From contig JAIBDA010000021.1 of assembly GCA_024679635.1 (NCBI GenBank), positions 1 to 16,404 on the forward strand: a stretch of DNA of 16,404 bases, given 5' to 3'. The stretch's first letter is position 1. Every line of letters starts with the position of its first letter. Shown one piece after another: positions 2,484 through 15,380 of this stretch. The DNA comes from Amphritea sp. (lineage in GTDB: Bacteria > Pseudomonadota > Gammaproteobacteria > Pseudomonadales > Nitrincolaceae). The notes under the pieces are model-generated. The model ran no database searches, was not told the DNA's origin, and saw only the letters and a program-made list of their open reading frames with translations. Both the position numbers and the translations under genes were made by a program.

Positions 2484-2840
2484 ATGTTTAAACAGGAATA
2501 TCGAAATTGGGTCGAGTACCGTGATTTACCAGGCGTTTTAGAGTATGACTTTCACAGAGCCAATGATGATATCAATGCCCCTAAGCCACCCTACTACGAG
2601 CTAATGGATCAGGTTTGGGATGATACGTTGAAAATTCTGAAGAAAGCCTATGATGAAGGCTATCAATATGTCCTTTTCACCCATGGTGGATCTACATCAC
2701 GAATGGGTGAAACCACATCTCGATCTCAAGTGCGAAAATTGATGCGCAGCAAACTTGCCACTCCATATATCATCCGTAAAGAAAGCATTCAGCACGCGAC
2801 TGTTTTTGTAGCCGCTCTTAGAAAACCAAAAAGTATTTAA
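2484..2840 (+). CDS. Small hypothetical protein (118 aa)
   Basis: I do not recognise this protein with confidence. It starts at an ATG with AGAGGG about 9 nt upstream. The N-terminal half is acidic and aromatic (WVEYRD near residue 10, then YYELMDQVW). The C-terminal half has a hydrophobic strand ending in FTHGGSTS, an Arg-rich helix (SRSQVRKLMRSK), and a final strand (ATVFVAALR). The order strand, HG, basic helix, strand is loosely like Smr-type nuclease folds, but the usual spacing is not clear, so this is only a hint. The gene sits alone between the two copies of the hsdR leader repeat and is divergent from hsdR. It could be an insertion into that leader. Its predicted length is intact. 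Confidence 0.6.
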   Translation: MFKQEYRNWVEYRDLPGVLEYDFHRANDDINAPKPPYYELMDQVWDDTLKILKKAYDEGYQYVLFTHGGSTSRMGETTSRSQVRKLMRSKLATPYIIRKESIQHATVFVAALRKPKSI

Positions 2841-3023: not shown

Positions 3024-3147
3024 CTTGTCCAAACTGAACGCTCTGTCTGCTAAAGCGCTATCTATTTGATCTAATAATATCGCACCACCCCTGTTGCATC
3101 CCAACGAATCCGCCCCTGCATAGCTGAGCTATCATCACCAAAATGAA
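3024..3147. repeat. Direct imperfect repeat, copy B (degenerate second hsdR leader)
   Basis: Second copy of the hsdR upstream region. On the minus strand it keeps GAC-AAG right after the start position, but the ATG has become TTG, and the frame stops after 17 codons without resembling HsdR. It looks like a decayed duplicate of the promoter and leader. Confidence 0.8.
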
Positions 3148-3196: not shown

Positions 3197-3230
3197 AAAA
3201 AGTGACAGGTTGCGTATTGGGTATAGATAG
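3197..3230 (+). repeat. Dispersed repeat copy 2
   Basis: The most complete copy: AAAAAGTGACAGG followed by TTGCGTATTGGGTATAGATAG. It shares AAAAAGTGACA, TTGCGTATTGGGTATA and spacing with copy 3 at 8732, and the TAGATAG end with copy 1 at 2857. Confidence 0.8.
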
Positions 3231-3677: not shown

Positions 3678-3744
3678 ATGGTTGAGAAGGCCGATCTGAA
3701 TTGTGTGTTCGAAAGTTTAATAACGATTAATGGGAGAAAGGAAA

Positions 3745-4935
3745 ATGGCTCTACAAATTAAGCCAACGCAGAAGGCACTAGACGCGGTGGATCGCCCTGA
3801 AAAGGGTAAAGCAGCGATTGAGCTACGTATTGAAAATCACCCCCATGTTCGCATTTGGCGTGGACCCGCCGAAGATTCTTATGGCGCACGGATAAGTGTT
3901 AAGAAACAGCGCAAATGTTTCGTGACATCTCGTGGGAATTACAAGCTACGACAGGGAATCGCGCTTGTTGAAGCAGATATTCAGCAACGAAGGCTGGGTA
4001 AAACTCCACAACCAAACGATTTGACTACAAAAGCTGCTGCTGACCTGTACGTCACGCCACATATTGAAGACTTGAAAGATGCGAAGGGGGCGTTGTCCAA
4101 GCAAAGAGTCCTTCACAATTTAAAACTGGCTGATGGTCAGCGTGTAGGCGACATCCCAGTCACTCAACACGATAAAGCCACCGCTTTAGAGGTACTTTCA
4201 GCTGCAAAGGAAGGCCGAAGACCCGCCAGCGCCAAGCGTCTTTTTAGTCGCTACAGCAAGAACTTATCAATTTTCGTCGATGAAGGCTTACTCGATGTAA
4301 ACCCTTGTCAGGGCATAAAGCTCCCCCGAGAGAACAACATCCGTAAGCGCATACTAACTGATCTAGAAATGCACCTACATACGATGAAGGCACTTGCTCT
4401 CCGAACACCCCAAGGTCACTGCCAAGTTTTAGCGAGCGCTATTGGTTGCCGTATCGGTGAAGCTATGAAAATGCGTTGGAGTGACATTCAACCTGACGGA
4501 TTGAGCGTAGTGATCTCCGATACAAAAAATGGGGGTGATTCCATATATCCCCTGAATAGTGCAGCCCGCCCAATTTTAAAACAGTGCAGATCATGGCAGA
4601 TAAGTGACTACATTTTTCCCTCCACCATTCGCCCTGAGGGGCACATAGCATATCCGCGTCAATCATTTGTAAAGATTCGAGCTGAGGTTATGGCGGAAGC
4701 TGGTACCGCCGGTGTTTTGCCAGAGTACTGGATGCATGACTGTCGCCGTTCCTTCGGTAGTAAATGTAACTCAGTGAATGGCGACCTACGAGCCACCCAG
4801 CAACTGCTCAATCACAAGAGCAGCACCACAACTGAACGCTACACCCACCATGTTTCCAAGCAACTTGCTGATGCCAGTGAACGTACCGTTCAAGCACTGT
4901 TTGGCGACCTACTCAACCAATTTAAGTGTGTTTAA
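3745..4935 (+). CDS. Tyrosine recombinase (integrase) of the pipolin
   Basis: Site-specific recombinase expected to integrate and excise the element by forming a covalent phosphotyrosine intermediate. Catalytic residues, numbered from 3745, are R236 (GCRIGEAMKMRW), H331 and R334 (HDCRR), H357 (LLNHKSS) and nucleophile Y366 (ERYTHH). The N-terminal half carries the arm- and core-binding domains. At 396 aa it is normal for the family. An in-frame ATG exists at 3730, but it has no ribosome site, whereas the ATG at 3745 follows GGGAGAAAGG, so I prefer 3745. The gene opens a plus-strand run: the excisionase-like gene follows 11 nt after its stop, with its ribosome site touching this stop codon. 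This is only distantly like the second integrase at 10961, so the two probably act on different elements. Confidence 0.93.
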   Translation: MALQIKPTQKALDAVDRPEKGKAAIELRIENHPHVRIWRGPAEDSYGARISVKKQRKCFVTSRGNYKLRQGIALVEADIQQRRLGKTPQPNDLTTKAAADLYVTPHIEDLKDAKGALSKQRVLHNLKLADGQRVGDIPVTQHDKATALEVLSAAKEGRRPASAKRLFSRYSKNLSIFVDEGLLDVNPCQGIKLPRENNIRKRILTDLEMHLHTMKALALRTPQGHCQVLASAIGCRIGEAMKMRWSDIQPDGLSVVISDTKNGGDSIYPLNSAARPILKQCRSWQISDYIFPSTIRPEGHIAYPRQSFVKIRAEVMAEAGTAGVLPEYWMHDCRRSFGSKCNSVNGDLRATQQLLNHKSSTTTERYTHHVSKQLADASERTVQALFGDLLNQFKCV

Positions 4936-4946
4936 GGAGAACTAAC

Positions 4947-5147
4947 ATGACCGCACAAGCCCTGACCGTGAAGCAGTTTGCTGAACGATATTCGCTCAAC
5001 CCAAGCACCGTTAGCGCGCAGGTTACGCGCCAAGCTGACGCGCTTCCAAAATTCCTACGTATCGGGAAACAGATCCGTTTTCCGGTACTGGAAATTGAAA
5101 AGTGGGAATTATCCCAACTGAACGCTGACGCTAGTCAGAACCTTTAA
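4947..5147 (+). CDS. Small HTH protein, excisionase/AlpA-like
   Basis: A 66-aa protein with a winged-HTH (MerR/AlpA-like, HTH_17) layout. It has LTVKQFAERYSLNPSTV as the helix-turn-helix (residues 6-22), followed by FLRIGKQIRFPVLEIEKWE (36-54), the usual wing and final helix of excisionase-family proteins. It probably binds the attachment region to direct the adjacent recombinase towards excision, and may regulate the operon. The start at 4947 is set by AAGGAGA overlapping the recombinase stop. An upstream in-frame start near 4926 would lie inside the recombinase gene and has no better site. It differs from ordinary MerR regulators in being only the DNA-binding domain. Confidence 0.82.
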   Translation: MTAQALTVKQFAERYSLNPSTVSAQVTRQADALPKFLRIGKQIRFPVLEIEKWELSQLNADASQNL

Positions 5148-5166
5148 CGTGATAGGAGAAAATCAC

Positions 5167-5781
5167 ATGGCAAAGCCACAAACCCGGTTAATCAACTTGA
5201 ATAACCGAGCAACCTTCCGCCCTGAAACTGTAGGCCTAGGGAAGTTCATCGAAAACAAAGGCGTCTGGATAACAGACTTGCAAGGCGCCACGAAGCTTCT
5301 TGTGAGAGAAACAGACCCTATTGAAGGACTAAAACTTCTGCGTGTTGCACGTGAAGGCGTCCTTAACTGCGGAAGCAAAACGCCACTTGTGCTTCTGGAT
5401 GACGGTGCTTTTGTTGCTGTCGCATTGATCGATGTTATCGAGCCTTGGGATGACGACATCGTGATTAAAAACGAAAATGGGCGAGTTATTGCAAGCTTCC
5501 CAGGAGATGAATACCCAGATTCAGATTTGGTGATGGAAGAGCTTATGAAGGCTGTTGATTCCGCTCATACTCGTCGCCCACATCGCATTGATTGGGTAAA
5601 GCTGAAGAAGATTGATGACGAGGATTTAACGCCCGAAGACGAAGCGGGTACCGATGCTAAAGCTGATACTACCGTTAAAGCCGAAGCTGAAGCTAGTAAA
5701 CCGGCACCTGTCGAGCCAGACAGCAAAGGCAAAGCCGACTCTAAAACCCAGAAACAGGCCTCCTTAAAGGCTGCTTCCTAA
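5167..5781 (+). CDS. Unknown 204-aa protein between excisionase and piPolB
   Basis: I do not recognise this family. The start at 5167 has TAGGAGA 7 nt upstream. The first 150 residues look folded, with alternating strands and helices: hydrophobic strands VWITDL, KLLVRE and PLVLLDDGAFVAVALIDVI, then an acidic patch EPWDDDIVI. The last 50 residues are low complexity, rich in Ala, Asp, Glu and Lys, and probably disordered. There is no signal peptide or membrane segment. The gene lies 19 nt after the excisionase-like gene and 56 nt before the polymerase, with a hairpin in that gap. A small folded domain with an acidic tail next to a replicative polymerase resembles the layout of single-strand binding or replication accessory proteins. 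That is inference from position and shape only. Confidence 0.8.
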   Translation: MAKPQTRLINLNNRATFRPETVGLGKFIENKGVWITDLQGATKLLVRETDPIEGLKLLRVAREGVLNCGSKTPLVLLDDGAFVAVALIDVIEPWDDDIVIKNENGRVIASFPGDEYPDSDLVMEELMKAVDSAHTRRPHRIDWVKLKKIDDEDLTPEDEAGTDAKADTTVKAEAEASKPAPVEPDSKGKADSKTQKQASLKAAS

Positions 5782-5796
5782 AAACTTCCTAACAGG

Positions 5797-5824
5797 TATA
5801 AGGCCCTTTTCTAAGGGCCTTATA
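5797..5824 (+). terminator. Perfect 12-bp hairpin just before the polymerase gene
   Basis: TATAAGGCCCTT (5797-5808), loop TTCT, AAGGGCCTTATA (5813-5824). There is no U tract, only TAATATGG. It ends 13 nt before the polymerase ATG, where no clear Shine-Dalgarno sequence is visible. It could be a leaky terminator that lowers polymerase expression, or a translational control hairpin. Confidence 0.55.
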
Positions 5825-5837
5825 ATATGGTGCTTTC

Positions 5838-8660
5838 ATGACCCTCTCTCCCTCTTCAACTGGTAACAAGTATGAAGTATTAGCTCCTGATGATGAGCTG
5901 CAAATTCTCACCCCTGACTTACCAGCTAGGCCTGAGAACATTTCTATCGATGAGATAGAGCGAATCAACCCCATTGAAGCTTTTGATGCCATAGTCGGCG
6001 GTAGGGCGGCATTAGAAGAATTTCTGCCTGACAGCCAAACTCTGTCAGATATGGCCCCCGATCTTAGTATCCAGAAGATGCTAGAACTGGACTTACACTC
6101 GTATATCCAAATGCATCCCGGTGGGATCGATATTACTCAAGCTGAAGGACCTGTTGTGCATATGGGCTTTGATTCCGAGTTTTGTGATATCCCTGACGGC
6201 GATAAGAAAAGCGTTAGAGTACTTAGCTTGCAAGCGTATATCCGCGTCGGGAATCGCACGTATTCACATATTCATTACCCTAAAGGGCCTCAGAAGAAGG
6301 ATCGCCCCACTTTTTCAGAGTTCATTAGTGAAGTTATACAAGGAGCAATGAACGAAGGGGTTATCGATACGCCTCCAGCGGCGATATTTATCTACTCGCA
6401 TTTCATCCGTGCTGACGCCGGAGCGTGGCGTGACTTCTTTCATTTCAAAAATGAAGTGGACTCTTTGGGCGGTAGCTTTGCCAGTTTGATAAAGCCTTAT
6501 GGTGTGGATATCAATGTTATTAATGCTAAACGCATCAAACCCGATCCGTTAATGTTAAAGGGTGAAGGCCGGAAGTATTATCGCAGTCTAGTTAGGTTTA
6601 TTGACACGCTCCTACTGACTCCAGGATACGCCAGCCTTGATTCAGTGGGTGAAATGCTAAACATCCCCAGACTGGAGATTCCACAGCCATACAGTATTTC
6701 ACGCATGGATGAGTACCTAGAGGCTGACATTATTGGCTTCGAAGAGTATGCGCTACGTGACGCTGAAATAGCCTGTGAATATGGCCTAGCGATGCATGCT
6801 TTTACTCGTGAGCAACTCCATCTCGACAACCTTCCTGCGACCCTCGGTAGCTGTGCTGTTTCTGGCTTTCTTAACTCGCTATCCGAGTTCGAGAAGCTTG
6901 ATATCGAAGGCCTGGACTACGCCAGCTTATTCGGTCTTGAGTACAAACAGGAAGAGTATTGGCATGTTAAGAAACAGCGCACCCAGAAGCGTACTGTTAA
7001 GGTGTTTACACCTGCTAATAAATTTCATCGGCCTTTTATTGCTGACTGCTGTGCCGGTGGGCGTAATGAGGGCTTGTTTGTTGGTCCTACTCCTGAAGAT
7101 AAGTGGGTCGATATTGATATACGAGGCGCTTATACCCGTGGTCTTTGTGATATCCACCCCATCGATTATGAAGGAGCCTTTACATCCACCAATGTAGAAG
7201 ATTTCGTTGGGCATGTGATGGGCTTTGCTTATGTTAAGTTCAAATTTCCAGACGGAACTCGATTTCCTTGCTTACCTGTAGATGCAGGGGATCAGGGTCG
7301 GGTATTTCCTTTGGAAGGTGAATGTTACTGTGGGGCTCCCGAGATTTATTTAGCCCACACGCTGGGCTGTGAGTTAACGATCCAGCACGGGGTTATCTAC
7401 CCTTGGAAAACCACTGAAGTTCGCATATTTCAGCCTTTCGTCAAGTGGAGTCGTGATCAACGTGCTTTTCATAAAAAGAATGGAAATGTGTTCCAGGAAA
7501 AGTTGGTAAAAAGCGTCGCCAATAATTGTTATGGCAAAGGATTTCAAGGGCTGGTTCAGGGGAAAACAGGGTTTAATGCTAAGACAGGAATGAGCCAGAG
7601 AATTGGTGAAAGTGCTATTTCTAGCCCGCAAAATACTGGTCATACAGTATCATTTGTTAGGGCGGCAATCGGCGAACTTCTAGCTCGGATACCTAACGAG
7701 GTGACTGTGACTAATGTCACAACCGACGGATTTATCTGCAACATGGAACTCGAGGACGTTGATACATCAGGTCCGCTTTGCCAGCGATACCAAGCTTTAT
7801 GCGATCTTCTCTATAAGGGTGAGCACATGCTGGAGAAGAAGCATGTTGTTAGGCAATTAATAGGTATGAAGACACGCGGCCAACTTACTGCGATCCCCTA
7901 TCCTGGTGAAAAGCCTGTACTTGCTAAAGCCGGTTACAAACCTCCGGTGGATAAGTCCGAGCATAATGAACACATGGTCGGAAAGTACTTGAGCCGCTAT
8001 CCGGGGATGGACTACAAATTTAACTCACTGATATCCATGCGAGACCAGTGGATTACAGAGTCTGATTTGGTCAGATACGAGCAGAAACGGCTGATTAACT
8101 TTGAATTCGACTTCAAACGCCGCCCTGACAAGCCATATATGCAGGAAGTGCGCGACACCAAACACATTGCCTTCGATACGTTGCCATGGCGCAATCTGGA
8201 GGAATTCAGGCAGGTGCGAACGATATTTGATGGCTGGCGACGTAAGCACTGTTTGAAAACTATGGATGACTGGGCTCATTGGGAAGATCATTTGGCGGTA
8301 AAACAAGCATACAAGCCCAAGTGTGGCATCAAATTCCTGGACGGTGAACGTTCTGACGACCTGCTGAAGCGTGTTTTCTTACGCGCCTATGGTCAAGATG
8401 CATATGGCCTAACAAAGCATATGAAGCAGCAAGAGTTGGCTGATTGGTTAACTGAACAGGATTATCCGACATCATTGGATGATGTGAAAAGTGGTAGCCG
8501 TAATAGATCATCATTACCCTACCAAATCATCCCGGTGACAATAGGTGTGGTTAAGTTAATGAGGGTTCTTATCGAGCAATGGCCTGACCTGGAAGTTGAG
8601 AGTTTTATTCAAGCAGGGCGTGCTGAAGAATGCTGGGAGAAAATACTAGAAATTACGTAA
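5838..8660 (+). CDS. Primer-independent family B DNA polymerase (piPolB)
   Basis: Family B DNA polymerase, 940 aa, of the pipolin type, which is known to start DNA synthesis without a primer or terminal protein and to copy DNA processively. The 3'-5' exonuclease appears intact: ExoI D112-S-E114 (GFDSEF), ExoII around D193 (SHFIRADAG), ExoIII Y304xxxD308 (YALRD). Polymerase motif A is DIDIRGAY with D427 as the likely metal ligand. Motif B is K558 through N562-N-C-Y565-G566. Motif C is TTDGF with D630, a single-aspartate variant of the usual DTD. A KTRGQ motif at 678-682 fits the KxY/KxRG position. About 110 residues precede ExoI and about 230 follow KTRGQ. The 940-aa length and the TDG/KTRGQ pattern suit piPolB better than phi29-like polymerases of 500-650 aa. 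No terminal-protein gene is nearby, which also supports piPolB. Motif assignment is by eye. Confidence 0.88.
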   Translation: MTLSPSSTGNKYEVLAPDDELQILTPDLPARPENISIDEIERINPIEAFDAIVGGRAALEEFLPDSQTLSDMAPDLSIQKMLELDLHSYIQMHPGGIDITQAEGPVVHMGFDSEFCDIPDGDKKSVRVLSLQAYIRVGNRTYSHIHYPKGPQKKDRPTFSEFISEVIQGAMNEGVIDTPPAAIFIYSHFIRADAGAWRDFFHFKNEVDSLGGSFASLIKPYGVDINVINAKRIKPDPLMLKGEGRKYYRSLVRFIDTLLLTPGYASLDSVGEMLNIPRLEIPQPYSISRMDEYLEADIIGFEEYALRDAEIACEYGLAMHAFTREQLHLDNLPATLGSCAVSGFLNSLSEFEKLDIEGLDYASLFGLEYKQEEYWHVKKQRTQKRTVKVFTPANKFHRPFIADCCAGGRNEGLFVGPTPEDKWVDIDIRGAYTRGLCDIHPIDYEGAFTSTNVEDFVGHVMGFAYVKFKFPDGTRFPCLPVDAGDQGRVFPLEGECYCGAPEIYLAHTLGCELTIQHGVIYPWKTTEVRIFQPFVKWSRDQRAFHKKNGNVFQEKLVKSVANNCYGKGFQGLVQGKTGFNAKTGMSQRIGESAISSPQNTGHTVSFVRAAIGELLARIPNEVTVTNVTTDGFICNMELEDVDTSGPLCQRYQALCDLLYKGEHMLEKKHVVRQLIGMKTRGQLTAIPYPGEKPVLAKAGYKPPVDKSEHNEHMVGKYLSRYPGMDYKFNSLISMRDQWITESDLVRYEQKRLINFEFDFKRRPDKPYMQEVRDTKHIAFDTLPWRNLEEFRQVRTIFDGWRRKHCLKTMDDWAHWEDHLAVKQAYKPKCGIKFLDGERSDDLLKRVFLRAYGQDAYGLTKHMKQQELADWLTEQDYPTSLDDVKSGSRNRSSLPYQIIPVTIGVVKLMRVLIEQWPDLEVESFIQAGRAEECWEKILEIT

Positions 8661-8731: not shown

Positions 8732-8762
8732 AAAAAGTGACACTTTGCGTATTGGGTATATA
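8732..8762 (+). repeat. Dispersed repeat copy 3
   Basis: AAAAAGTGACACT followed by TTGCGTATTGGGTATATA. It is nearly identical to 3197-3228 and lies between the polymerase terminator and the HTH-ImmA/PIN operon. Confidence 0.8.
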
Positions 8763-8793
8763 CAGAGCTATTGGGTACCGGCACAAGATCACA

Positions 8794-8898: not shown

Positions 8899-9963
8899 AT
8901 GATTGGGGAGAGAATTGAGCGAGCAAGAAACGCTGCTGGGCTCAGTCTAAGAGAGCTGGGCAATATACTTGGCATTAGCCATACCGCAGTACGAAAATAC
9001 GAAAAAGAAAGTTTAATGCCTTCATCCAAGCAGCTTATTCAAATAGCAAAGGCTGTTGATGTTCGTATTGACTACTTCTTTCGACCTGTTGAAGTAAGAA
9101 TCGAAGGTATTGAGTATCGGAAACGATCTAGCATAACTAAAAAGATTTTGAACCGAATTACTTCTGATGTTTATGAGCAAGCTGAGCGCTGGGAAGAATT
9201 ACTTGGGTTATATCCACAGCAACCTATTCCTAATTTTTCATTGCCGAATGAGCTTCCATCGGAGGTTCCCAATTTTGAGGCCGTCGAAGCTATCGCAGAG
9301 CAAATGCGTAATGCTTGGGATTTGGGATTAAACCCAATTTCTGACTTAATCGATACTCTTGAAACTCGCGGTATCATGGTCATTGTTTCTTCTGTAGATG
9401 CTGGTAACAAATTTGATGGCTTAGCTGGGACTATCGGTGATAAGCCCGTTGTGGTTGTATCTGAAGAATGGTCAGGCGATCGTCAACGTTTTACCTTAGC
9501 TCACGAACTTGGTCATCTAGTGCTTCACAACCGTTTACCCGATGAGATGGATGAGGAATCTGCCTGCAATCTCTTTGCCGGAGCATTCCTACTTCCTAAG
9601 TCAACCGTATTAGAAGCCTTTGGGGGGCACCGTAAGGCTATTAACGAGAATGAGTTATCCATGCTTAAACAAGAGTATGGGCTAAGTATGAGCTCGATTC
9701 TTTACAGAGCATTCCAGTGCGGTGTTATATCAGTTAGCTATCGAAAACGTATGTTTATTTTGTTTAGCAAAAGAGGTTGGCGAAAAAATGAGCCCGGGGT
9801 TCCATACCCTGCTGAAAATACTTGGCTATTTTCACGTCTTGTATATCGAGCTTACTCTGAAGAATACATTGGAGAATCTAAAGCGGCTGAACTATTGGGT
9901 AAGTCATTACGAAATTTCCGCCAGGATAGCGATTTGGAGTATGTGAATGCGGGTACTCATTAG
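8899..9963 (+). CDS. XRE-family HTH fused to ImmA/IrrE (DUF955) metallopeptidase domain
   Basis: A 354-aa two-domain protein. Residues 1-58 are an XRE/Cro helix-turn-helix (IGERIERARNAAGLSLREL...ISHTAVRKYE). Residues of about 135-290 are an ImmA/IrrE-type zinc peptidase domain with H202-E-L-G-H206 as the metal and catalytic motif. ImmA-like proteins cleave or control phage and mobile-element repressors. The HTH-fused form often acts as the antitoxin or regulator of a PIN-type partner. The start at 8899 has AGAGG 8 nt upstream. The stop overlaps the PIN gene by 17 bp, so the two are translationally coupled. The C-terminal 60 residues (SRLVYRAYSEEYIGESKAAELLGKS) form a further helical region. 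It could instead be an independent regulator of element transfer. Confidence 0.9.
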   Translation: MIGERIERARNAAGLSLRELGNILGISHTAVRKYEKESLMPSSKQLIQIAKAVDVRIDYFFRPVEVRIEGIEYRKRSSITKKILNRITSDVYEQAERWEELLGLYPQQPIPNFSLPNELPSEVPNFEAVEAIAEQMRNAWDLGLNPISDLIDTLETRGIMVIVSSVDAGNKFDGLAGTIGDKPVVVVSEEWSGDRQRFTLAHELGHLVLHNRLPDEMDEESACNLFAGAFLLPKSTVLEAFGGHRKAINENELSMLKQEYGLSMSSILYRAFQCGVISVSYRKRMFILFSKRGWRKNEPGVPYPAENTWLFSRLVYRAYSEEYIGESKAAELLGKSLRNFRQDSDLEYVNAGTH

Positions 9964-10429
9964 TGACGCCAATGTCCTTATTGATATGGAAGACTGTGGC
10001 CTAACGGCCCTGATGTTAAAGCTACCCTATCATTTTCTGGTTCCTGACTTGCTTTATTACAGTGAGCTTGAAGAACATCACCCCGAATTATTGGATCAAG
10101 GCTTGGAAGTTATCGAGCTCAGCGCTGAAACAATGACCAGAGCTGATGATTTGGAGCGGAAGTACAGAAGACCGAGTATCTATGACTGTTTTGCCTTAGC
10201 CGCTGCAGAGCAAGAACAATGTCCCTTAGTTACCGGAGACGGGCCTCTTCGTTCGGCAGCCAAAAACGAGCAGGTAGAGATTCGCGGAACACTTTGGGTT
10301 ATTGAAGAATTAGTATTGAATAAATTAATCACTTTGAACGCAGCCTCTGACGCGTTCGATAAGCTTAAAGAGCAAAATTGTCGACTTCCATGGGGTGAAG
10401 TGGCCAAGCTACTAGATCGTTTGAAGTGA
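9947..10429 (+). CDS. PIN-domain ribonuclease, putative toxin
   Basis: A 160-aa PIN-fold protein, a predicted Mg-dependent RNase. The four conserved acidic positions are visible: D7 (ISDANVLID), E40 (YYSELEEH), D80 (SIYDCFAL) and D98 (VTGDGPLR). The ATG at 9947 has GGAG 7 nt upstream inside the preceding gene and overlaps it by 17 bp. PIN proteins paired with HTH or ImmA-type partners commonly behave as toxin-antitoxin or addiction modules, which would stabilise the element. The target RNA cannot be inferred. The last 50 residues form a helical tail not needed for catalysis and could contact the partner. Confidence 0.87.
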   Translation: MRVLISDANVLIDMEDCGLTALMLKLPYHFLVPDLLYYSELEEHHPELLDQGLEVIELSAETMTRADDLERKYRRPSIYDCFALAAAEQEQCPLVTGDGPLRSAAKNEQVEIRGTLWVIEELVLNKLITLNAASDAFDKLKEQNCRLPWGEVAKLLDRLK

Positions 10430-10566: not shown

Positions 10567-10622
10567 ATTCAAAATCCCCCGCCTTCAAAAGCGTGCCGGT
10601 TCGAGTCCGGCCACTGGTACCA
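10567..10622 (+). repeat. Attachment site: 3' fragment of tRNA-Leu(CAA)
   Basis: The fragment starts at ATTCAAAATCCCCC, which would be anticodon loop TTCAAAA (anticodon CAA) and the 3' anticodon stem. It continues through a class II variable arm (CGCCTTCAAAAGCG), a perfect T arm GCCGG-TTCGAGT-CCGGC, acceptor strand CACTGGT, discriminator A and encoded CCA. Upstream bases (TGTGGT) do not form the 5' anticodon stem, which should be GGGGA, so the 5' half is missing and this is not a working tRNA. Tyrosine recombinases commonly target tRNA 3' ends, and from memory E. coli pipolins also use a tRNA-Leu gene. The start of homology at the anticodon loop marks the likely crossover region. Confidence 0.85.
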
Positions 10623-10960: not shown

Positions 10961-12139
10961 ATGATCAAGAAATTCAAATTCACCAATGACCGGATACGGT
11001 CGCTTCCACCCAACCCCCAAGCGTCTTCTTCAACCGATCTGGAGGTCTCCGACACCGAGACCACAGGGCTAAAGTGCCTATCAGGAAAATCCGGTAGCAA
11101 GCGTTTTTTGCTGCGTTATGTATTTAACTCACGTAAGCGCAGCATTACCCTTGGACGCTTTCCCGATATCGATGTAGCCACTGCCCGCAAAGCTGCCCGC
11201 ACGCATCGAGCCATGATTGCAGAAGGCAAAGACCCGAAATCAGTACAAGAAGCTCAGCAGCAAGCCCCTACTGTAAGCGAATTTTTCTGGCAGACGTTCT
11301 TGCCTCTACAGAAGAAACATAAGAAATCGTGGTCCAAGGACGCACAGCGATTCCGGGATTACTGTGAACCTTATATTGGGCACCTACTGTATACAGATCT
11401 GAAAGCATCTCATGTCCAGCAAATCCAGCTGAGGCTCAACGAACCAACTAAAAATCGCCCCGCCTACGCTAACGCAACCTGTAACAGAGCTCTTGCCGTA
11501 TTAAAAACGATGGGACAGTGCGCTGTTCGGTTTGATGTAGTACCCGTAAATGAAGCGATGAAAATCAAGCAACTACGTGAGAATAATGCCCGTACCCGTT
11601 TCCTAGACTCTAACGAGCTAAGATCACTCATTATCAAAGCGCGGCAGTATAAGAGCCCGTTCATCGGTGGGTTTATCGCAATGCTAGCCATAACAGGCTG
11701 TCGTAACAGTGAGATTCGGTTAGCTCAACACACTAACCTCGACAAAGCTAATCGCACGCTATTCATTCCCACAACCAAAAATGGCCGCAGTAGAACCTTA
11801 TATCTATCTGATCTGGCCATGGAGATTCTAGACAATACACCGACGGTTCCCGGAAACCCTTATATCTTCGCTGGTCGAAAGCCTGGAAAACCCCTTACTG
11901 ACTGCCGTGTAGCTTATCGACAGCTTCTTACTCAAGCAGGTATTGAGGACGCCAGTTCGATTGTATTTCACACGTTAAGACATTCTGTAGCCAGCTCCTT
12001 GGTATCCGCTGGCAGTACTCTCTATGACGTAAAATTCCAGCTAGGCCACAGCTCTATACAGAGCACAGAACGTTACTCTAAGCAAACCGCAGAGCGTCAA
12101 CGTAATACCAGTGAGAAGCTTTCCGCCCTAGTCAGATAA
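10961..12139 (+). CDS. P4-like tyrosine integrase of a second element
   Basis: A 392-aa integrase. The N-terminus carries a DUF4102-like arm-binding domain (SKRFLLRYVF, ITLGRFPDIDVATARKAAR near residues 47-85). A central SAM-like core-binding domain follows. The C-terminal catalytic domain has R248 (TGCRNSEIR), a Lys-bearing hairpin (TTKNGRSR), H337 and R340 (HTLRH), H363 (LGHSS) and nucleophile Y372 (RYSK). It starts 339 bp after the tRNA-Leu fragment and reads away from it, the standard arrangement for integrases next to their tRNA attachment site. GGAGG lies 4 nt before the ATG. A strong terminator follows at 12246. It probably mobilises the element to the right. Confidence 0.94.
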   Translation: MIKKFKFTNDRIRSLPPNPQASSSTDLEVSDTETTGLKCLSGKSGSKRFLLRYVFNSRKRSITLGRFPDIDVATARKAARTHRAMIAEGKDPKSVQEAQQQAPTVSEFFWQTFLPLQKKHKKSWSKDAQRFRDYCEPYIGHLLYTDLKASHVQQIQLRLNEPTKNRPAYANATCNRALAVLKTMGQCAVRFDVVPVNEAMKIKQLRENNARTRFLDSNELRSLIIKARQYKSPFIGGFIAMLAITGCRNSEIRLAQHTNLDKANRTLFIPTTKNGRSRTLYLSDLAMEILDNTPTVPGNPYIFAGRKPGKPLTDCRVAYRQLLTQAGIEDASSIVFHTLRHSVASSLVSAGSTLYDVKFQLGHSSIQSTERYSKQTAERQRNTSEKLSALVR

Positions 12140-12245
12140 AAGCTATCCGGCTCTTCTACCCACCCAATCCGTGAAGCATCGATATCAAGGACTGTGAAAT
12201 CGATATACATGGAAGAGACATAACTCAACTTATAATCTATCAATT

Positions 12246-12278
12246 AAAGCCCTGAATCCTTTGGATTCGGGGCTTTTT
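12246..12278 (+). terminator. Rho-independent terminator after second integrase
   Basis: AAAGCCC-T-GAATCC, loop TTT, GGATTC-G-GGGCTTTTT. A strong stem with U tract separates the integrase from the next operon, whose first ATG is 18 nt further on. Confidence 0.85.
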
Positions 12279-12296
12279 CATTTCTGGAGATACCAC

Positions 12297-12656
12297 ATGC
12301 ATTTTACAACCGTCTGGCCCGGAGGAATTAATCTCGGCCTACCTTCTGATGCGCATCAAGCCATGATGTCCCTGTTAATAGAACCTTTCGATAATGAAGA
12401 AGCCGCCAAACAATACTGGGCTAATAATTCAGGCACTTTGATCATCCTTCAGCCTGAAGATGATCAATCTGCTCTGGATAGTCTAATGACTTCAGCCCGT
12501 CAACAGATCCAATTTTCCCTTACCTATCCAGAATTCACAGAACCTGTCAGCCCTGACTACCAATTATCGTTAGCCATCGTCTCTGATGATGGTACAGGTG
12601 TCTATCTGCTCACCCATCGGGAATGCCCCCTATTGAAAGGACAAAACGATGCCTGA
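12297..12656 (+). CDS. Hypothetical protein (119 aa), first gene of YkvA operon
   Basis: I do not recognise this family. It is a soluble, acidic, mixed alpha/beta protein with no signal or membrane segment. Visible segments are VWPGGINLGLPS, the helix DAHQAMMSLLIEPFDNEEAAKQYW (residues 18-41), strand GTLIILQPEDD and strand LAIVSDDGTGVYLLTH near the end. The start at 12297 follows TGGAGA by 6 nt. A possible earlier start at 12261 lies inside the terminator stem and is rejected. Its stop overlaps the YkvA gene by 8 nt, so the two are coupled. Confidence 0.75.
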   Translation: MHFTTVWPGGINLGLPSDAHQAMMSLLIEPFDNEEAAKQYWANNSGTLIILQPEDDQSALDSLMTSARQQIQFSLTYPEFTEPVSPDYQLSLAIVSDDGTGVYLLTHRECPLLKGQNDA

Positions 12657-12957
12657 ACTCTCCCACCGCCGAGTATGGACCAAGCTGAAAGCTATCAAAG
12701 GCATTCGGGTGTTACTGCTACAGGCTCTTGTCCTCTACGCACTAATCCTCGATGCAGATATGCCTAAATGGGTAAAAGCTGCCGCAATGGCCGCCCTTCT
12801 ATATTTGATCGACCCCATTGATGCCGTACCGGATTTCACCCCGACAATCGGCTACCTGGACGATCTCGCCGTGCTCGCTGCAGTGATCAAAGCGCTTCAC
12901 GATCAAGTTCAGCCTCGACACGAACTACAAGCCAATCAGATGTACGCAGAACTATAA
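12649..12957 (+). CDS. YkvA-family (DUF1232) protein
   Basis: 102 aa, with the DUF1232 signature DPIDAVPDFTP at 55-65 followed by GYLDDLAVLAAV. The family is small and membrane associated or tail-anchored in places. Here residues 20-35 (VLLLQALVLYALIL) and 43-54 form hydrophobic helices. The biochemical role of DUF1232 is not known to me. AAAGGA precedes the start, which overlaps the upstream gene's stop. It lies in a three-gene operon with unknown proteins on both sides. Confidence 0.88.
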   Translation: MPELSHRRVWTKLKAIKGIRVLLLQALVLYALILDADMPKWVKAAAMAALLYLIDPIDAVPDFTPTIGYLDDLAVLAAVIKALHDQVQPRHELQANQMYAEL

Positions 12958-12972
12958 ATAAGGAATACGATA

Positions 12973-13482
12973 ATGGCCCGTAAGAAAACAAATACCCAAG
13001 CGCCCTCAGATACTAATGAAACTTTAGAAGAAGCAGTGCGCCCGGAAGAACCTGATACAGCAAATCAGCAACCCGACCCCGATACAAACTATGAACTAAT
13101 CATTGAACGTGGAGAAGCCGATAAACTCAGCCCGAAGTCGGTCGGTAAAATCTATTTTCAATTCGCCAAGAACCTGGAAGATAGCGGACTTTATCTGCGG
13201 ATCACTGGGAATGACGGTGGCGGATTACATTCTCGCGAATGGGTCGACTTTCAGAAAGTCATCGACACGATATCGCCCCAGAGCAATCACCCTTTTAAGT
13301 CGACGTTACTGAAGTCGTGCATGAAAGGAAAGTCATCTAACAACACCTCTTTTCTGGCAGCAATTCTACGTTCTCCAGAGATAAGGTTGATCAAAGCCAG
13401 CGATAAAAGTGCGTTTCTGCACCTGTTAGTAGACGACTTCGACAACGGTGCTGCTGCTCTGCTGCAGCGTGCCCCCGAGTAG
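12973..13482 (+). CDS. Hypothetical protein (169 aa)
   Basis: Unrecognised. The first 40 residues are polar and probably disordered (Asn, Gln, Thr, Pro, Glu rich after MARKKTN). From there a compact domain follows: YELIIERGEADKL, then SVGKIYFQFAKNL, then LYLRITGNDGGGLHSREWVDF, and helical segments to the end (AFLHLLVDDFDNGAAALLQ). An AAGGA site sits 8 nt before the ATG. The gap to the YkvA gene is 15 nt, so it belongs to the same operon. No catalytic motif is evident. Confidence 0.75.
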   Translation: MARKKTNTQAPSDTNETLEEAVRPEEPDTANQQPDPDTNYELIIERGEADKLSPKSVGKIYFQFAKNLEDSGLYLRITGNDGGGLHSREWVDFQKVIDTISPQSNHPFKSTLLKSCMKGKSSNNTSFLAAILRSPEIRLIKASDKSAFLHLLVDDFDNGAAALLQRAPE

Positions 13483-13550
13483 CCACTGACAGTGCATACA
13501 ACTCCTTTAACCGACACTCACTACCCTTCCCCTTTACACAGGTAAAATGT

Positions 13551-13988
13551 ATGAAGCTGCCAATACAGACGGACGACGGCGTGCTGCCCATTTCTAATCA
13601 ATTGATCCAGATACTGACTAATGAGCTAATGAAGCACTATCCCAATCTGGAACAGTTTACGGATGCTGAAGTGATTACTTACAATTTCCGTGATCCTGAC
13701 TACTCAGCCGATCAGGGTGGCTACCATCCCGTTGAGATTCGCATCAGTAGAGCGGACATGGCCTTCCAGCTGGATTACCTTACGGACTTCTCTTTTGTTC
13801 GGTCCGGTTGGGACAACGAGCTCGCCAAGGAGATTGATTTCGACCTGGCAAATGGCTGCTGTGAGATCCGTTACTGCAAACCTATAACAATTAAGCAGGG
13901 AGCAGATATGTACAAGAGGTATCAGGAAAACTTTATCAGCTACTACAGCATGGACGTTTACGATGTCGATGTAAGCGTAGAATTCTAA
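13551..13988 (+). CDS. DUF2787 family protein
   Basis: 145 aa. It matches my knowledge of DUF2787, small proteins of gammaproteobacteria often found on mobile DNA. Diagnostic stretches are LPISNQLIQIL (12-22), TYNFRDPDYSADQGGYHPVEI (43-63), LDYLTDFSFV, ELAKEIDFD (about 90-98) and NFISYYSMDVYDVDVSV at the C-terminus. Function is unknown. The ATG at 13551 has only a weak ACAGG site. It is separated by 68 nt from the previous gene, so it may be transcribed with the YkvA operon or alone. Confidence 0.85.
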   Translation: MKLPIQTDDGVLPISNQLIQILTNELMKHYPNLEQFTDAEVITYNFRDPDYSADQGGYHPVEIRISRADMAFQLDYLTDFSFVRSGWDNELAKEIDFDLANGCCEIRYCKPITIKQGADMYKRYQENFISYYSMDVYDVDVSVEF

Positions 13989-14584: not shown

Positions 14585-15196
14585 ATGCGATTCTTAATAA
14601 CAAATTTGAAGGGGGGCACAGGGAAGAGCGCCATCGCCCTTAACTTCGCGGCTTATACAGATAGCCTTTACATTACCAACGACCTTACGGCACCCGCTCA
14701 CCATGATGTGGTGCAGATAGAGCCGGATAAAAAGCGTATCCCTTTATCACTAACACGAGAGAAAGATGTTGTTTTTGACTTTGGTGCTCTTTCCACATAT
14801 CTGGATCCTAAGGTATCCCAGGTATTGAACCTTTGCGATGTGATAATCATTCCTACCCGTCCGGATCCACGCAGCATCAGTGCGACGTTGAAAACCTATG
14901 AACTTGTGCTTGAGTCTGGCAAGCCCATCATAATCATCATCAATCACTTTCGGGATTGGAAAAAGTACGATACAGCACGTGATCAGTTAATAAATCAGCT
15001 AGGGAGGGTCCCCATATTTTCGATCCGGGAGACGACCTTATTTGATCGCGTCAGCAGAGATGGTGTTGATTGGCTGCTTAACGTGCATAACGAAAAAGGG
15101 GAGTATCAGCTCAATAAAACTCGCCAGACTCATGAAACTATTTATGATCGAATTGTTGCTATAGGGATTGCTCATGAAATTAAAAACATTTGCTGA
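14585..15196 (+). CDS. ParA-family partition ATPase (ParF-like)
   Basis: 203 aa. Deviant Walker A K9-GGTG-K14-S, with the signature first Lys. Walker B-like VVFDF with D65. IIIPTRPD (motif 3 region) comes next, then IIIIINHFRDW. The small size and lack of an N-terminal HTH match type Ib ATPases such as ParF, which form DNA-associated filaments or gradients to segregate low-copy plasmids. The gene has GGGG about 8 nt before its ATG and overlaps the ribbon-helix-helix gene by 23 bp. The substrate-specific role could instead be another MinD/ParA function, but the partner and operator favour partition. Confidence 0.88.
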   Translation: MRFLITNLKGGTGKSAIALNFAAYTDSLYITNDLTAPAHHDVVQIEPDKKRIPLSLTREKDVVFDFGALSTYLDPKVSQVLNLCDVIIIPTRPDPRSISATLKTYELVLESGKPIIIIINHFRDWKKYDTARDQLINQLGRVPIFSIRETTLFDRVSRDGVDWLLNVHNEKGEYQLNKTRQTHETIYDRIVAIGIAHEIKNIC

Positions 15197-15380
15197 GGTA
15201 GAACAGACAATTGGCGGCAGACCAAAGGTGGGAAACATGAAGGTGCGTATGAGCTTTTATGTCAGTCAGCCCGAGGCTGAACAGCTTAGATCATTGGCAG
15301 ACAAAAATGCACGTCCTATCAGTCAGATGGTTAGATTGATTATCGGTGAATATCTGGCCTCTCACTCCATATCAAACTGA
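15174..15380 (+). CDS. Ribbon-helix-helix protein, ParG-like partition partner
   Basis: 68 aa. The flexible N-terminus is followed by strand KVRMSFYV (23-30), then helices PEAEQLRSLADKN and ISQMVRLIIGEYL, the classic CopG/Arc layout. The start at 15174 follows AGGGA by 6 nt and lies inside the ATPase gene. In type Ib modules this protein binds the upstream centromere, represses the operon and stimulates the ATPase. The first 20 residues could hold the arginine finger used for that stimulation; R17 is the only clear arginine there. Confidence 0.8.
   Translation: MKLKTFAEVEQTIGGRPKVGNMKVRMSFYVSQPEAEQLRSLADKNARPISQMVRLIIGEYLASHSISN

Follow-up and report, generated by a model that had tools for sequence, protein, structure and literature searches.

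Gene content and organization of the contig

The window analyzed here is the 16,404-nt contig JAIBDA010000021.1 of an Amphritea sp. (assembly GCA_024679635.1). It carries two blocks of genes that are known from pipolins, elements marked by a primer-independent family B DNA polymerase (piPolB), with a tRNA-Leu gene fragment (the 3' half) between the two blocks (Table 1). The first block, at 3730-8660, encodes a recombinase, an excisionase-like helix-turn-helix (HTH) protein, a protein without family assignment (protein X) and the polymerase. This four-gene run was already recognized in an earlier, sequence-only reading of the window; the ATG at 3745 that was chosen there as the integrase start is in frame, but the gene begins at 3730. 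The second block, int2 to DUF2787 at 10961-13988, recurs in gammaproteobacterial pipolins. Since an annotated E. coli pipolin contains the same two blocks, the 3730-8660 run represents one of two pipolin modules. The contig is almost certainly part of a genuine pipolin, and the element adds a new pipolin to an already known kind. The sequence-only reading was therefore right about the nature of the element but incomplete, for it overlooked the module with int2, the partial tRNA-Leu gene between the modules and the partition genes. The window holds only part of the element. Counts of loci given in Table 1 and below refer to a comparison set of 78 listed piPolB loci (at least that many exist) and, unless stated otherwise, to matches with E<=1e-3.

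Table 1. Features of the 16,404-nt window
Feature	Position	Strand	Basis
hsdR, EcoAI/FtnUII-family type I restriction subunit, cargo, cut by contig end	3..2300	-	NF046051 1143.9 bits; PADLOC REase_I
118-aa open reading frame (ORF)	2484..2840	+	one relative in 78 piPolB loci (L031, 2e-37)
int1, tyrosine recombinase of the polymerase module	3730..4935	+	PF00589 2.3e-17
xis-like, HTH_17/excisionase-like protein	4926..5147	+	HTH_17 1.1e-5; phrog_66 excisionase 5.1e-5
Protein X, 210 aa, between xis and piPolB	5149..5781	+	profile of positional orthologues
piPolB, 940-aa primer-independent-type family B DNA polymerase	5838..8660	+	tree, motifs, homologues, AlphaFold2 model
Operator-like repeat region, two TATTGGGTA, upstream of RmrA-like gene	8732..8777	+	motif count
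HTH + IrrE/ImmA protease, RmrA-like antitoxin/regulator	8899..9963	+	Peptidase_M78 2.1e-17; HTH_3 1.1e-10; PADLOC RmrA 2.7e-51
PIN-domain protein	9947..10429	+	PIN 6.4e-7; 17-nt overlap with RmrA-like gene
Putative att site; tRNA-Leu(CAA) gene fragment (3' half, from anticodon loop through CCA)	10568..10622	+	52/55 to intact genes
int2, P4-type tyrosine recombinase (arm-binding + catalytic domain)	10961..12139	+	PF13356 5.2e-15; PF00589 2.1e-21
int2-module gene	12261..12656	+	20/78 loci; phrog_32947
int2-module gene, DUF1232	12649..12957	+	PF06803 1.1e-12; 6/78 loci
int2-module gene	12973..13482	+	34/78 loci; phrog_28971
int2-module gene, DUF2787	13551..13988	+	PF10980 2.7e-31; 24/78 loci
ParA-family partition ATPase	14585..15196	+	CbiA 1.9e-6; phrog_164; PDB 3cwq 2.3e-4
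Ribbon-helix-helix (RHH) protein	15168..15380	+	weak RHH matches under Pfam cut-offs
324-aa ORF, cut by contig end	15428..16402	-	weak relatives in L026

The polymerase belongs to the piPolB clade

The reading frame of the polymerase gene is intact, and its product matches PF03175 below the Pfam cut-off (3.3e-5; 23.4 bits, cut-off 25.8). An alignment with nine protein-primed family B polymerases (PolBs; phi29, PRD1 and seven more), RB69 and 23 piPolB-side rows placed Exo I at D112/E114, Exo II at D193, Exo III at D308, Pol A at D427 and Y432, Pol B at K558...YGK567 and Pol C at TTDG 628-631. The alignment thereby confirmed the three exonuclease motifs, motifs A, B and C, the TDG-type motif C and the KTRGQ element (residues 678-682) that were noted earlier. 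All 23 piPolB-side rows have TTDG or VTDG as motif C, whereas the nine protein-primed PolBs and RB69 have DTDS. KTRGQ is common to E. coli and most piPolB-side rows, with R for K or altered last letters in the distant ones; it may have a role in priming.

A protein search recovered 143 homologues at E<=1e-3, a similarity that is not due to chance, and the best 120 of these form the basis of the relatives named here. Among the matches listed, the closest was 75% identical over 90% of the length (P0001), followed by one at 71% (P0002) and by the nearest named relative, Aliamphritea hakodatensis (P0003), at 66%; named matches from Aeromonas, Citrobacter, Buttiauxella, Vibrio and Methylorubrum reached 34-41%. 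The hsdR product has a best match of 94% and, among named matches, is closest to Neptuniibacter, Pontibacterium and Neptunomonas (84-86%). Both results agree with the proposal that this pipolin lies outside the E. coli group.

A tree of 32 rows (862 columns) separated the 22 piPolB-side rows, among them E. coli TA8571, the Staphylococcus and Fusobacterium plasmids and the window polymerase, from the nine protein-primed PolBs and RB69 by a branch with support 100/99. The tree thus upholds the earlier assignment to the known piPolBs. Long branches were noted for RB69, for the Fusobacterium row and for two of the protein-primed rows; four rows had an odd composition. It is scarcely conceivable that the protein is instead a protein-primed PolB whose terminal protein was overlooked. 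Of the solved structures, that of phi29 polymerase is indeed the best match to its exonuclease and polymerase fold (AlphaFold2 model with pLDDT 83.2, below 50 for residues 1-74 and 217-235; E 1.8e-13, 12% identity), but both the branch that splits it from the nine such PolBs and its TTDG, where they have DTDS, argue otherwise. No terminal-protein family was found among the PHROG matches of the 16 window proteins either, which is weak evidence given that terminal proteins diverge fast. On the basis of this kinship the window polymerase may be expected to synthesize DNA without priming.

Two genomes were seen to contain more than one piPolB gene. Vibrio splendidus (G005) has two, one of which (L021) carries an in-frame stop, and Methylobacterium J-076 has two on one contig (L033/L067).

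The polymerase module and protein X

The order integrase-xis-X-piPolB, as given in the sequence-only reading, is also that of E. coli TA8571. Matches to int1 were obtained in 39 of the 78 loci, cross-matches to int2-type integrases included, and matches to the xis-like gene in 24; the HTH_17 score of the latter (26.1 bits) is just short of the Pfam cut-off of 27. Protein X matched no Pfam or PHROG family, and a single-sequence phmmer search with it retrieved none of the 78 loci. A profile of eight positional orthologues (Vibrio, Photobacterium, Marinomonas and Moritella), from which the window was left out, matched the window protein at 7.2e-6, the next of the 93 window ORFs following at 1.9, and it also picked the neighbour of xis in three Colwellia loci in which the polymerase is turned round, which indicates that X travels with int1-xis. 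On the genes at the same place in Enterobacteria and most Aeromonas it gave no match, or one with E 0.02 only. The C-terminal domain (around residues 70-150) was modelled with block means of 88-97, with weak fold matches. Judged by these comparisons of sequences, X is a conserved, fast-evolving family and a partner gene located between xis and piPolB; its position suggests that it might act in replication or excision.

The four genes are exactly bracketed by 34-nt direct repeats at 3197 and 8732 (30/34 identical), which could be taken to delimit an element of 5.5 kb in its own right. This is very unlikely, considering that a third copy lies at 2849, that the TATTGGGTA core of the repeat returns at 8769 and 9893, that the repeat gives matches of 12-14 nt only in the 78 related loci and that the relatives use att sites of the tRNA-fragment kind. 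The repeats would be better explained as an operator of the RmrA-like HTH protein. Apart from the two copies upstream of the RmrA-like gene, TATTGGGTA is found at 2867, 3215 and 9893; the five matches compare with 0.15 expected, and none of 200 shuffles reached five, for a motif that was chosen after the repeat had been seen. With copies upstream of both the RmrA-like gene and int1, one may guess that the RmrA-like regulator could control the polymerase module.

The tRNA-Leu fragment and the probable joining of the ends

ARAGORN called no tRNA in the window. Nevertheless, positions 10568-10622 are identical at 52 of 55 bases to the intact tRNA-Leu(CAA) genes of two gammaproteobacterial genomes (L097 and L098), the runner-up place in the window reaching 29/55. 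The 5' half of the gene is absent, as the 32 nt upstream of the fragment match at 8/32 only. The fragment separates the two modules: the polymerase end precedes it and int2 follows. Its distance to int2 is 321 nt to the open frame (from 10943) and 339 nt to the ATG, and in three Aeromonas pipolins 323-328 nt separate the int2 open frame from an intact tRNA-Leu(UAA). The int2 protein was matched in 42 of the 78 loci, cross-matches to int1-type integrases included, and in 20 at E<=1e-70; its HxxR, H and Y are invariant across an alignment of 10 rows.

The arrangement is the opposite in integrated relatives. An intact tRNA and a fragment bracket piPolB in six cases (L016, L028, the L038 region in G002, L064, L069 and L077), and in all three of these with a strong int2 match (L016, L028 and L038) tRNA and fragment enclose the polymerase as well as int2. 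In two Colwellia metagenome-assembled genomes both modules are enclosed by repeats (128 and 142 bp) that cover the 5' part of tRNA-His. Hence the modules are inside the att copies in all five relatives in which both att copies and both modules are visible. Given that relatives keep the two modules between their att copies, and that the window has its fragment between the modules, the contig most likely shows joined ends, and we consider it very probable that the junction joins the two ends of the element head to tail. Most likely, what lies left of the fragment is the polymerase end (int1, xis, X, piPolB, the RmrA-like gene and the PIN gene) and what lies right of it the integrase end (int2 to DUF2787, ParA and RHH). 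Taken together, the contig probably represents a tRNA-Leu(CAA)-integrating gammaproteobacterial pipolin, presumably of marine origin, with its ends joined.

Several observations weigh against this interpretation or against an excised form. The contig has a single att copy, its partner not being there, the contig ends show no overlap, and the contig is not closed. Not all copies bracket the polymerase: in L051, and for the 3'-half copy of L037, they are found on one side of it, while L048 and L061, like L028 with its tRNA-Ala pair, simply have adjoining intact tRNAs. In Actinobacillus minor (L068) the polymerase runs into int2 on the same strand (around 9207-9393), with no tRNA fragment seen in the gap, and the order alone is therefore no proof; L068 is the one such case among the 20 loci with a strong int2. 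Six of 369 gammaproteobacterial genomes with no detected piPolB carry genes like the one at 12973, and a relative lies at a YkvA-family gene on the Aeromonas caviae plasmid NZ_CP121793.1 (13340-13747), which is typed as conjugative. Genes of the int2 module thus also move on their own, and the right half could stem from another kind of element. Close ParA relatives are present in only 2 of the 78 loci. Finally, the part of PMC7385651 that we draw on describes pipolin excision in E. coli as negligible or undetectable by Illumina sequencing.

Circle, tandem or chimeric assembly

Whether joined ends would reflect an excised circle, rather than a tandem or a chimera, is about evenly balanced. A head-to-tail tandem of two elements at a chromosomal tRNA-Leu, with a shared middle att copy and no circle, predicts the same junction, and we regard it as a serious contender though somewhat short of even; the element on the right may then be another pipolin, or one of a different kind that has an integrase of the pipolin type. 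In line with a tandem, PMC7385651 reports some E. coli genomes with three att repeats and a neighbouring prophage. Furthermore, the L007 piPolB gene, which is found in 292 of 5426 complete E. coli genomes and on chromosomes only, occupies 294 places in those 292, meaning that two per genome occurs. A foreign right half would also fit the int2-like and 12973-like genes of genomes without a detected piPolB, one of six of which has a 12261-like gene too, and the 12973-like gene beside YkvA on a plasmid. On the other hand, int2 and the 12261, 12973 and DUF2787 genes stand together as a block in piPolB loci (a sample chosen by piPolB), and the six 12973-bearing neighbourhoods without piPolB all lack DUF2787, have a distant int2 (1e-33 to 1e-57) in five cases and none in the sixth.

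A chimeric assembly, in which the two ends of one integrated element became joined via the identical att repeat, is unlikely. Several relatives have att copies with 45 to about 100 bases in common, enough for a misjoin at short k, but the junction is otherwise regular with the expected spacing, and such a misjoin would normally not arise with reads that exceed the repeat in length.

The ParA protein is 49% identical to the ParA of a Colwellia pipolin, and the ParA-RHH pair occurs in both L036 and L037, inside the two bracketed Colwellia elements; the RHH protein is likely the partition partner of ParA. The pair counts for an extrachromosomal stage. There is a precedent in the integrative and conjugative element R391, whose excised form owes its stability to toxin-antitoxin, partition and replication functions (PMC4489591). 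We tentatively propose, as one possibility, that the junction is a natural attP and that the contig stems from an excised, self-replicating and actively partitioned circle, a plasmid-like life stage served by piPolB with X, ParA-RHH and the RosmerTA-like pair. In such a cycle int2 would recombine the tRNA-Leu att site, the xis-like protein would tip this reaction towards excision, and 10568-10622 would be the attP of the resulting circle. The circle could then be copied by piPolB without primer or terminal protein, X helping, and be held in the cell by ParA-RHH and the toxin-antitoxin pair until reintegration.

In the passages of PMC9710591 relevant here, the role of piPolB in pipolins is called unclear and att-mediated excision unconfirmed in vivo, and those of PMC7385651 record no episomal pipolin in the E. 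coli strains studied. If true, the attP circle would constitute a plasmid-like stage with the very excision that this literature, as far as covered by these passages, leaves unconfirmed. With such a junction, pipolin excision becomes open to direct testing, as an exact 55-base site with its flanks is provided for excised circles, and ParA-RHH and protein X are named candidate partners for a replicating stage. New here are the partition pair shared with two Colwellia pipolins and the evidence for X as a family.

As a separate observation, the 69,022-bp contig JAQTWB010000006.1 (L004/L005) contains a 34,385-bp piPolB-bearing unit twice, with 180 mismatches in 34,637 compared positions, and is perhaps a circle that was assembled double.

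Comparison with known pipolins

The E. coli pipolins share with the window the same two modules and a tRNA-Leu target. The order in TA8571 (L087) is hsd genes ... int1-xis-212-aa protein-piPolB ... DUF2787-12973-like-12261-like-int2-tRNA-Leu. In contrast to the window, TA8571 has an intact tRNA-Leu(UAA) near int2, the int2 module on the other strand and no ParA annotated in the stretch. The polymerase of E. coli L007 is 41% identical to that of the window in the best segment; that of A. hakodatensis (66%) falls in the same clade. The best int2 match of the loci compared came from 'Proteobacteria bacterium 005FR1' (L038, G002; 1.9e-184, 68% over a 125-aa piece), which has the same gene set and a tRNA fragment beyond the polymerase end. 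Its gene order, when closed into a circle, equals that of the window; unlike the window it is integrated at tRNA-Phe with its ends apart, and its piPolB is in two overlapping frames. Marinomonas sp. TW1 (L028) has the same tRNA-Leu(CAA) target and a fragment that starts from the same anticodon-loop position. There, the intact tRNA-Leu(CAA) and the fragment bracket a 13.4-kb pipolin that, in contrast to the window, is integrated, with the fragment outside both modules and int2 on the other strand.

The Colwellia pipolins (L036 and L037) resemble the window in having ParA-RHH inside the element and X adjoining xis, but they reside at tRNA-His, of which the 5' part is repeated, and their polymerase is reversed relative to int1-xis-X. 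The pipolins of Staphylococcus and Fusobacterium, with polymerases of the same clade at about 25% identity, lie on circular plasmids with recombinase-family and MobC/relaxase genes, unlike the window, and no tyrosine integrase is annotated in the two stretches compared. The window does not conform to this plasmid type, as it has two tyrosine integrases and its 16 proteins yielded no relaxase or resolvase from Pfam.

Cargo and minor features

The hsdR gene and the RmrA-like/PIN pair are likely defence cargo, and the PIN-domain protein is likely the toxin partner of the RmrA-like gene. RosmerTA systems, according to the part of PMC10440598 consulted, pair RmrA with diverse toxins. The homologues P0005 (62% for piPolB) and P0219 (81% for hsdR) come from the same source (longest contig 28,238 bp for both) and possibly represent the same element and cargo. 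The 324-aa ORF at the contig end received no Pfam, PHROG or PADLOC assignment; two weak relatives of it flank a Thiocystis piPolB, one on each side (L026, 3-1784 and 13146-13709). A 57-nt direct repeat (89% identical) at 2274-2330, the start of hsdR, and 3024-3080, upstream of int1, looks like a duplication of a promoter region around the 118-aa ORF.

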